Source of the DNA: Prevotella sp.
GTDB taxonomy: Bacteria; Bacteroidota; Bacteroidia; Bacteroidales; Bacteroidaceae
Direction: 5' to 3'
Length of the DNA: 50,588 nt
Assembly: GCA_017467705.1 (NCBI GenBank)
Contig: JAFUSC010000001.1
Location: 1 to 50,588, forward strand
Positions 6,653-41,384 of the stretch are shown piece after piece. A program made the position numbers and the translations under genes. Each line of letters begins with the position of its first letter. The first letter of the stretch is position 1. The notes beneath the pieces were generated by a model. The model was not told the DNA's origin. It ran no database searches and was given only the letters and a program-made list of their open reading frames with translations.

Positions 6653-6742
6653 GAGTTAGGTGCCGCCTAACTGGTAGTTAGGTGCCACATAAAGGGGAGT
6701 TAGGCGGCACCTAACTGTCCTTTAGGTACCGCCTAACTCTTC
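6653..6742. repeat. Four copies of a palindromic word (GTTAGGTGCCGCCTAAC family)
   Basis: Variants of AGTTAGGTGCCGCCTAACT follow one another with short spacers such as CCTTTAG and AAAGGGG. The same array recurs at 40607-40692, and a partial copy lies at 50437-50449. Each copy is itself a dyad. Confidence 0.85.
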
Positions 6743-39568: not shown

Positions 39569-40189
39569 TTATGCCGTGATGTCTCTCAGTCGGGCGATGT
39601 ACTTCCCTAAGATGTCAAACTCAATGTTCACCACTGACCCGACGGCGATGTCACAGAAGTTTGTGTGTTCCAGCGTGTAGGGGATAATGGCCACTTGAAA
39701 CGTGTTGCGGGTAGGGTTGCACACCGTCAGCGAGACACCGTTCACCGTCACAGAACCCTTGTCTACCGTGAAGTAGCCACGGTGGATGGCTTCAGCGTCG
39801 GCCTCATGTTCAAAGGTGAACAGCTTGCTGCCGTCAGCATCCTCGACCGCCGTGCATGTGGCTTTGCCGTCGACGTGGCCCTGCACGATGTGACCGTCCA
39901 GCCGGCCGTTCATCAGCATGGAGCGCTCCACGTTCACCCTGTCGCCCACGTGCAGCAGACCGAGGTTCGAGCGCTGCAGCGTCTCCTTCATGGCCGTCAC
40001 CGTGTAGACGGTACCCGCAGGCGTGTCCGGCTGTATGTCAACCACCGTGAGGCATACACCGTTATGCGACACGCTCTGGTCAATCTTCAGTTCATCGACA
40101 AAAGAACAATGCAGGGTGAAGTCAATATTCTCCCTGTCCCGACGTATGGCAACTACAGTGGCCATCTCTTCAACAATTCCAGAAAACAT
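39569..40189 (-). CDS. ribE: Riboflavin synthase alpha chain
   Basis: The 206-residue protein starts with the hallmark 'MFSGIVEE' and has two tandem lumazine-binding repeats. The first holds 'DQSVSHNGVCLTVVDI' and 'RVNVERSMLMNGRLDGHIVQGHVDG'. The second holds 'KGSVTVNGVSLTVCNPTRNTFQVAIIPYTLEHTNF' and 'VNIEFDILGKYI'. It converts 6,7-dimethyl-8-ribityllumazine to riboflavin. The frame stays open upstream to 40405, but the ATG at 40189 gives the family N-terminus and the upstream part is a structured RNA. Expression may depend on read-through of that RNA's terminator 21 nt upstream. Confidence 0.95.
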   Translation of the reverse strand: MFSGIVEEMATVVAIRRDRENIDFTLHCSFVDELKIDQSVSHNGVCLTVVDIQPDTPAGTVYTVTAMKETLQRSNLGLLHVGDRVNVERSMLMNGRLDGHIVQGHVDGKATCTAVEDADGSKLFTFEHEADAEAIHRGYFTVDKGSVTVNGVSLTVCNPTRNTFQVAIIPYTLEHTNFCDIAVGSVVNIEFDILGKYIARLRDITA

Positions 40190-40209
40190 GATTATAACTT
40201 TGAGCTTTG

Positions 40210-40405
40210 AAAAAAAGTGTGGGTCATGTTGTTGATGTGATGAAAACTCCTGTTTCCAAGATTTGAGTGCTCGCTGTCGTTTGTAATCCACCGGCATTGC
40301 TGCGGTTCCCATCGGGGGAAACTGTGGCCCGCCATAGGCAGCGAAGCTGGCTCGGTTTTCAATGTCATTTGATGAGTATCCCGATCTATACAACACAACC
40401 CACAC
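40210..40405 (-). ncRNA. Candidate structured RNA of ~196 nt with 6S-like architecture, upstream of ribE
   Basis: Read on the minus strand, the first 16 nt (40405-40390, GTGTGGGTTGTGTTGT) pair fully with 40232-40217 (ACAACATGACCCACAC), with two G-U. Seven Ts follow directly (40216-40210), as in a terminator. Inside are a UCUUG-GAAA-CAGGA hairpin (40261-40248), a GCUUCGCUG/CAGCGAGC stem (40347-40339 with 40276-40269) and further irregular pairs up to a GGGAA/UUCCC apical stem. A consensus promoter starts it. Size, paired ends and an open middle resemble 6S RNA. A ribE leader/attenuator is the alternative. It does not fit the FMN riboswitch consensus. Confidence 0.55.
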
Positions 40406-40407
40406 TG

Positions 40408-40438
40408 CAAAGGTAGCACTTTTTGTGCAAATAACAAA
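40408..40438 (-). promoter_or_regulatory. Consensus promoter of the candidate RNA / ribE
   Basis: On the minus strand TTTG (40438-40435), 19 nt, TACCTTTG (40415-40408). This is an exact consensus match, with the start predicted at about 40403-40405, just where the closing stem begins. Confidence 0.8.
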
Positions 40439-40464
40439 ACAAAAACGGATTTATTTTTTAGATG

Positions 40465-40520
40465 GACGTACGTTCTTTAGACGTTCTTTAGACGAATAGA
40501 CGAATGAACGTTTTTTTAGA
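40465..40520. repeat. GACGAATGAACG-type words
   Basis: Degenerate TTTAGACG and GACGAATGAACG words, the same family as the 28-bp array at 18155-18358. Confidence 0.7.
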
Positions 40521-40606
40521 CGGGTATTATTTAAATCCGTGCAATCCGCGCAATCTGTGGTTGGTTTCAAACGCACAGCTCGAATTTTTGATGTCTTGCC
40601 TGAGCA

Positions 40607-40692
40607 GGAGTTAGGTACCGCCTAACTACCCTTTAGGTGCCGCCTAAGTCATAGTTAGGTACCGCCTAACTCCCCTTTAGGTGCCGCCTAAC
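40607..40692. repeat. Second array of the GTTAGGTACCGCCTAAC palindromic word
   Basis: Four consecutive variants (TACC or TGCC centres) separated by CCTTTAG-like spacers, as at 6653-6742. It lies just downstream of the outer-membrane barrel gene. Confidence 0.85.
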
Positions 40693-40703
40693 AATCATTT
40701 TGT

Positions 40704-41384
40704 CTACAGCGAAATGTTATAGCCGACGGTGAGCATGAACACGCTGTTGCGGACGTTGGTTCCCCGAAAGCCTAAAGGCTGGATTGTATAACCACGGTTG
40801 GGATCGTCGTATGGCAAATAAGAACTTACGTCCTCGTATCTGTTCGATTCCTTTGCCATCTTCGTCAGCCCGAAACAGTAACGGGCATCTATGACAAAAT
40901 GCTTATACTCATACGAAATGCCGATGGGTATAGCCATGTCAAAGGTGTTAAACAGCTCATCAACATTCACGTAACAACGCGCTCCCTCATGCCAACCTGA
41001 CTCTCTGGCACCAAGCAGGAAGCCGGGCTGCACACCGGCCTTGATAGCCAGTCCCTTTGCCACGTAGTAGTTAGCCAGAAGAGGAATATTCAGATAGTGC
41101 AGTTTTATTTTCGGGTCGAATGACTGATGCGTGTGACAGCCCTGCATGGCATACAGCGCACCGCCGCTGATGGCAAACTGCGGTGACACCTGATAGCTGA
41201 GTTCGGCACCGCCCACGAGGCCCACCTTCATCTTGGTCGCCTCTGTATCCTGACCGACAAGGCTGGTCAGCGTACCGCCCACCATCGGTTTCAGACTAAA
41301 CGAGCCCGCAGCATCCTGTGCCTGAGCAGAAACTACACACAACGCTGCCAGTGCAGCTGCTAAAAACGTTCTTTTCATTGCCAT
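40704..41384 (-). CDS. Outer-membrane beta-barrel protein (porin-like family)
   Basis: The 226-residue protein has a signal peptide (cleavage after 'VSAQA', about residue 22). Alternating amphipathic strands are typical of an 8-10-stranded barrel ('LVGGAELSYQVSPQFAISGGALY', 'LPLLANYYVAKGLAIKAGVQPGFLLGARE', 'IGISYEYKHFVIDARYCFGLT'). It ends 'VFMLTVGYNISL', a usual terminal strand. It resembles the Bacteroidetes 'outer membrane protein beta-barrel' family, whose ligands are mostly unknown. The start could be ATG 41384 or 41378. A palindromic-word array follows the stop. Confidence 0.82.
   Translation of the reverse strand: MAMKRTFLAAALAALCVVSAQAQDAAGSFSLKPMVGGTLTSLVGQDTEATKMKVGLVGGAELSYQVSPQFAISGGALYAMQGCHTHQSFDPKIKLHYLNIPLLANYYVAKGLAIKAGVQPGFLLGARESGWHEGARCYVNVDELFNTFDMAIPIGISYEYKHFVIDARYCFGLTKMAKESNRYEDVSSYLPYDDPNRGYTIQPLGFRGTNVRNSVFMLTVGYNISL

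Follow-up and report, generated by a model that had tools for sequence, protein, structure and literature searches.

A 6S-type RNA of the Bacteroidales-1 family directly upstream of ribE in Prevotella-like Bacteroidales

6S RNA is thought to sit on RNA polymerase and to damp transcription, and in the 6S RNAs that have been studied the closing stem, the loops and the apical arm mimic the downstream DNA, the transcription bubble and the upstream DNA, respectively. Within the Bacteroidales, the closest described system is the Bacteroidales-1 RNA, which appeared in 2010 in Table 1 of Weinberg et al., where the cis-regulatory column of its entry is left open ('cis-reg?') (PMC2864571). In Rfam this family carries the accession RF01693 and the description "6S-Bacteroidales RNA suggested". 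For Bacteroides thetaiotaomicron, the passages of PMC7366714 that deal with the subject report a 6S RNA together with two classes of pRNAs, and cite Wehner et al. 2014 for the 6S prediction. Literature searches on 6S RNA in the Bacteroidota turned up little, and the accession RF01693 itself was encountered, in the literature searched, in the 2010 paper alone (PMC2864571).

The window analysed here, a stretch of 50,588 nucleotides from a Prevotella sp. assembly (GCA_017467705.1, contig JAFUSC010000001.1), carries at 40210..40405 on the minus strand an RNA gene that, judged by its covariance-model match and its fold, is a member of this known 6S-type RNA family of the Bacteroidales. We consider it very probable that it represents the 6S RNA of Prevotella-like Bacteroidales, an RNA that would be transcribed from its own primary-sigma promoter, have its ends paired, bind RNA polymerase and serve as a template for pRNAs, with the downstream gene ribE probably being expressed by read-through.

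Family membership and distribution

The covariance model of RF01693 matches positions 40400-40216 over its full length (model positions 1-179 of 179). The match scores 106.8 bits where the cut-off is 60, has an E-value of 9e-17 for the whole window and shares the conserved blocks and the apical arm of the family. It is the one match to the family in the source genome, whose completeness is 77%. The classical 6S model RF00013 gives no match in 39900-40700 at E up to 10 and none across the source genome, in a search whose control matched five of 14 named genomes, four of them above the cut-off; 6S-Flavo (RF01685) gives no match in the source genome, and the control genomes likewise gave none. 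Riboswitch and rib leader families of Rfam are also missing from 39900-40700 at E up to 10, where just RF01693 and three chance hits were returned. A preliminary description of the sequence had suggested searching this region with the Rfam 6S, FMN and Bacteroidales models. As RF00013 finds nothing here, what ties the RNA to classical 6S RNA is the Rfam title, the report from B. thetaiotaomicron and the architecture, in which fold and covariation point to paired ends, an open centre and a long apical arm, with a short helix (P2) splitting the open region.

RF01693 was found in 31 of 36 genomes of the same genus, the source genome included, and, among 199 genomes of the family drawn at a completeness of at least 90% (the source genome excepted), in 191, with matches in 22 of 22 genera. 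Across the order, 70 of the 247 genomes drawn gave a match, 51 of them above the cut-off. The preliminary description had left a choice between the 6S RNA of this lineage and a ribE attenuator; the former is supported by the family match, its single occurrence in the source genome, its presence in nearly all genomes of the family and the covariation of the end stem, and the latter is taken up below together with termination.

Of the 199 family genomes, one from another genus (G444) is the only one with two RF01693 matches, which have equal scores and lie on contigs C4 and C89. One of the two begins at base 440 of its contig, and the pair may reflect an assembly duplicate.

Secondary structure

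In the minimum-energy fold of the 196-nt segment 40405-40210 (-64.8 kcal/mol, z -3.47, equalled by two of 200 shuffles), the outermost helix is the closing stem P1, whose 5' arm (40390..40405, minus strand) pairs with the 3' arm (40217..40232, minus strand) over 16 bp, two of them G-U, as the preliminary description had predicted. The covariation that it had proposed to look for in this stem is also present: the highest corrected score among all column pairs, calculated on 106 sequences, falls within P1, at 40400:40222 (AU 51, GC 50, others 5), and 14 of the 16 pairs show two-sided changes in 42 sequences. Further P1 pairs in the same register (40398:40224, 40394:40228, 40395:40227, 40397:40225, 40391:40231 and 40390:40232) are found in the top 70 of this score, which ignores kinship and also places several non-complementary pairs, such as 40378:40276, in that range. 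The 106 sequences derive from 113 loci, from which a second copy of the window (L001), a weak match (L063), three loci with short flanks (L075, L077 and L087) and two identical rows were left out, and the 42 are a subset of them, hand-picked for spread. On this subset, the whole named structure has a covariation score of 0.350 (0.208 when shuffled), which none of 500 shuffles attained, and 82.9% of its cells are paired, compared with 37.7-47.0% when it is slid by one to three columns. As the helices P2 and P3 were found in the run on the 106 sequences, the subset is no independent test of these two, while P1 had been predicted beforehand in the preliminary description. The outermost pairs of P1 are poorly kept, with 21-28 unpaired cells of 41 in each of the outer four and 13 in the fifth, which indicates a conserved stem of about 11 bp and a longer one in the window; the 3' arm is off by one column in some alignment rows (e.g., L011), so that the counts for the closing stem are lowered.

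Inside P1, the comparison points to two further helices. P2, which is absent from the Rfam structure, would pair ACUC (40374..40377, minus strand) with GAGU (40246..40249, minus strand); 96% of its cells are paired in the 42 sequences, and the pair 40376:40247 covaries (CG 99, GC 7, n=106), the seven GC sequences being so similar to one another that they probably reflect one event. P3, in which GAG (40351..40353, minus strand) would pair with CUC (40265..40267, minus strand), extends the apical arm past the Rfam structure and has 100% of its cells paired in the 42 sequences; its middle pair, 40352:40266, covaries and is paired in 106 of 106 sequences (AU 88, GC 13, GU 5). The middle of the RNA would then consist of two internal loops flanking the short helix P2, and not of one open bubble. 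The GAAA-capped hairpin noticed in the preliminary description (40261-40257 with 40252-40248) does form in the minimum-energy fold. It overlaps P2 (40377-40374 with 40249-40246), the helix favoured by the comparison, and its exact segment, GAAACAGGAGTTTTC, occurs in eight of 52 same-genus loci. P1 and, on weaker support, P2 and P3 would add to the secondary structure given by Rfam. A helix UCGG/CCGA obtained with RNAalifold on the 5' strand, where the changes are one-sided, is not claimed.

The loop strands are strongly conserved in the alignment, in the neighbourhood of GAUCGGGAUACUCAUCAAAU (5' side) and of CAUCACAUC (3' side), which, by analogy with the studied 6S RNAs, fits a contact with RNA polymerase. 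Following this analogy, these strands, which run from the closing stem to the apical arm, would imitate an open promoter and bind the RNA polymerase holoenzyme. The closing stem would take the place of the downstream DNA, the apical arm that of the upstream DNA and the internal loops that of the transcription bubble. The loop strands would also be the template of short pRNAs, which would release the polymerase, and copying would proceed off the 5' strand, heading toward the closing stem. Inspection by eye of the RNA strands for an imitation of the TTTG/TAnnTTTG promoter gave nothing convincing.

Transcription of the RNA and of ribE

Upstream of the RNA, the sequence at 40408..40438 (minus strand) reads as a Bacteroidota promoter for the primary sigma factor, TTTG-N19-TACCTTTG, with TTTG at 40438-40435 and TACCTTTG at 40415-40408, followed by two bases and then G40405; the spacing is that given in the preliminary description, whose coordinates for the RNA are correct as well. 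The predicted start of transcription is the base with which the closing stem begins, and the product would be about 195 nt long, with its ends paired in the 16-bp stem. A TAnnTTTG box is found at most 70 bases upstream in 48 of the 52 same-genus loci, and TTTG lies 17-21 bases above the box in 33 of the 52. The distance from the end of the box to the start of the aligned RNA is seven bases in the window; of the other 51 loci of the genus, 47 have a distance of 8-50 bases and four have no box, so the tight fit between box and start is peculiar to the source genome.

The intergenic stretch adjoining the promoter contains repeats. Four TTAGGYRCCGCCTAA units at an exact spacing of 22 bases form an array (40611-40692) that lies between the promoter and the point where the adjacent ORF 40704-41384 ends, and an array of the same kind stands at 6656-6736. 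With 75 copies on 18 contigs genome-wide, mostly in runs at 22-base steps, this is an interspersed intergenic repeat; the pattern read backwards does not occur in the genome. Short tandem repeats with the units ACGTTCTTTAG, TAGACGAA and AATCCGTGC occupy 40470-40559 in the same stretch.

Downstream, the ATG of ribE (39569..40189, minus strand; riboflavin synthase, NCBIfam NF006767 and TIGR00187 above cut-off) follows the U-run at the end of the RNA by 20 bases. The 50 closest riboflavin synthases listed from named genomes (73-81% identity) comprise 48 from Prevotella/Prevotellaceae, one from Xylanibacter and one from Segatella, and the lineage is for this reason called Prevotella-like here. In Prevotella-like bacteria the 6S gene nearly always directly precedes ribE. 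The ribE gene lies downstream on the same strand, 15-309 nt past the aligned RNA, in 50 of the 52 same-genus loci, which comprise 31 genomes with an RF01693 match and 21 added loci; of the latter, 12 were chosen with the positions of RNA and ribE known and nine by the position of ribE, so that they could not miss it. The unbiased part of the set is therefore formed by the loci found via the RNA alone, where ribE follows in 29 of 31, the exceptions being L030, in which it is absent from the examined flank, and L031, in which it is on the opposite strand. Two further genomes lie outside the 52: G461, with the RNA and no match for ribE, whose inclusion gives 50 of 53, and G470, with neither. When named genomes are sampled by RibE alone, 70 Prevotella-type loci have at least 600 bases upstream, and 66 of them carry the RNA before ribE in the same orientation (67 of 73 before this cut), the four without it being L151 (Segatella copri), L160, L164 and L192, the last titled just Bacteroidales; the RNA-based and RibE-based samples overlap, as some contigs are shared (e.g., L116 and L016). 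Outside this group, the RNA was found upstream of ribE in none of seven Bacteroides/Mediterranea/Phocaeicola loci (one with only 174 bases upstream), and ribE in none of the examined flanks of 57 other-genus loci found via the RNA, flanks that in 56 cases reach 1 kb or more downstream. In the 27 other-genus genomes of the family with both on one contig, the nearest distance between RNA and ribE, among the matches listed, is 13.3 kb. The literature searched contained no report of a pairing of 6S RNA and ribE, and the co-mentions in PMC2864571 and PMC7366714 concern an unrelated word.

Two other readings of the region were considered. The ribE frame is open up to 40405 in the window (ORF 39569-40405), as the preliminary description had noted, and the region could on that ground be taken for the N-terminal coding part of a longer RibE. 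What holds for the window does not hold as a general feature: the frame is open through the RNA in just four of 50 same-genus loci, the window included, so that its openness here is put down to chance. All 50 loci have the ATG at the place corresponding to 40189, the riboflavin synthase models match from residue 1 of the protein starting there, and the longer N-terminus, rejected on the count of open frames, is hardly credible. A cis-acting leader of ribE, that is, an attenuator or riboswitch with a 6S-like fold by accident, is favoured by the regular position of ribE behind the RNA on the same strand and by the 'cis-reg?' that stands in the 2010 table (PMC2864571). Nevertheless, we regard it as very improbable: the RNA occurs without ribE in the examined flanks of 57 of 57 other-genus loci, which means that it is not primarily a ribE leader, and a strong hairpin terminator belonging to the RNA itself is present in 43 of 56 of these; moreover, no riboswitch family appears in 39900-40700 at E up to 10. 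The attenuator that the preliminary description had offered as its second option thus falls as a primary role and is compatible with a 6S RNA, which in the Prevotella-like genus may also limit read-through into ribE.

How the RNA ends bears on this last point. P1 is immediately followed by the U7 run that the preliminary description had correctly placed there (40210..40216, minus strand), and both together are the proposed terminator; a scan for local hairpin terminators on the minus strand of 40150-40720 found none. A strong separate hairpin within about 72 nt is present in 43 of 56 other-genus loci and in 17 of 52 same-genus loci, an apparent loss in the Prevotella-like lineage. These counts were made with the strict threshold only, at which shuffled sequences score 1-2 of 56 and 0-2 of 52, and a looser scan, in which they scored 22-28 of 56 and 18-28 of 52, was dropped as a measure. 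Within the same genus, a run of at least five U lies around the end of the closing stem in 30 of 35 loci without the hairpin versus five of 17 with it, and the mean stability of the stem is -24.3 versus -20.2 kcal/mol (p 1.4e-7, kinship ignored); the window is of the hairpin-less type, with U7 and a closing duplex of -27.9 kcal/mol. The rarity of the hairpin in this genus and the U-run after the stem suggest that the 6S end stem may itself terminate transcription ahead of ribE, and U-runs and stabler stems in hairpin-less loci are what would be expected if the closing stem had taken over termination. However, on a tree of ribE the hairpin state changes just six times and yields a single well-supported independent pair, which means that kinship alone could explain its association with the stem, and the link between hairpin loss and stem strength is a lead only. 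No other -7 box is visible: between the start of the RNA and ribE, TAnnTTTG was seen in none of 50 loci, which is weak evidence as few such boxes are expected by chance, and RNA-ribE gaps of 15-50 nt leave scant room for a promoter outside the RNA. Given that the closing stem and U7 are the sole visible terminator between the two genes in the source genome, expression of ribE most likely results from read-through of transcription that began at the 6S promoter.

It is also conceivable, and we give it a real though lesser chance, that both roles coexist, the closing stem of a 6S RNA doubling as a regulated ribE terminator and the folding or polymerase-bound state of the RNA setting ribE expression. 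The U-runs and stabler stems of the hairpin-less same-genus loci speak for this, as does the lack of any other minus-strand terminator in the window, but the few changes on the ribE tree, for which kinship could suffice, argue against it. Moreover, stem stability in other-genus loci is no different with and without the hairpin (p 0.50). The T content right after the stem differs just slightly (4.20 versus 3.06 of 8, p 0.02), and termination by a stem that encloses about 165 nt would be slow and unusual; Rho or another end is possible in its place. The more specific proposal that 6S RNA and ribE form one transcription unit in Prevotella, in which the closing stem is an intrinsic terminator and nascent folding or polymerase capture sets the amount of riboflavin synthase mRNA, we hold to be unlikely. 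The reading preferred here is that of a 6S RNA with its own promoter, from which ribE would be reached by read-through.

Comparison with known 6S RNAs

The likeness to RF01693 lies in the full-length match far above the cut-off, the conserved blocks and the apical arm. The Rfam structure differs in leaving the ends unpaired, without the closing stem, P2 and P3, and at its base the stem of the window reaches 5 bp past the ends of the model. The 6S RNA of B. thetaiotaomicron, which belongs to the same order and for which the relevant passages of PMC7366714 give two pRNA classes, is most probably the same RNA, judging by the Rfam title of the family, although Bacteroides-type loci differ in that ribE does not stand beside the RNA (0/7). 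With classical 6S RNA (RF00013, ssrS of E. coli), the RNA shares its length, paired ends, open middle and irregular apical arm, whereas the RF00013 model gives no match here and the Bacteroidales RNA would imitate a TTTG/TAnnTTTG promoter instead of a sigma-70 promoter; a 6S RNA of the Bacteroidota must mimic a promoter quite unlike that of E. coli. In E. coli, ssrS is likewise followed by a metabolic gene, ygfA. The Ms1 RNA of Actinobacteria, as presented in the pertinent passages of PMC9130861, is also 6S-related and was also found through gene synteny, but it belongs to another phylum and binds the RNA polymerase core and not the holoenzyme.

Against this background, the fuller structure, with its closing stem and, more weakly, P2 and P3, can improve the Rfam model and aid in locating where pRNAs start. 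With ribE next to it across Prevotella-like bacteria and a separate terminator apparently lost there, this 6S RNA is a case in which a tie to a gene of flavin biosynthesis can be tested, and, if the closing stem is indeed the terminator, a global regulator of transcription would double as a cis attenuator. Both the 6S-ribE unit and the fuller structure add modestly to what is known of this family.
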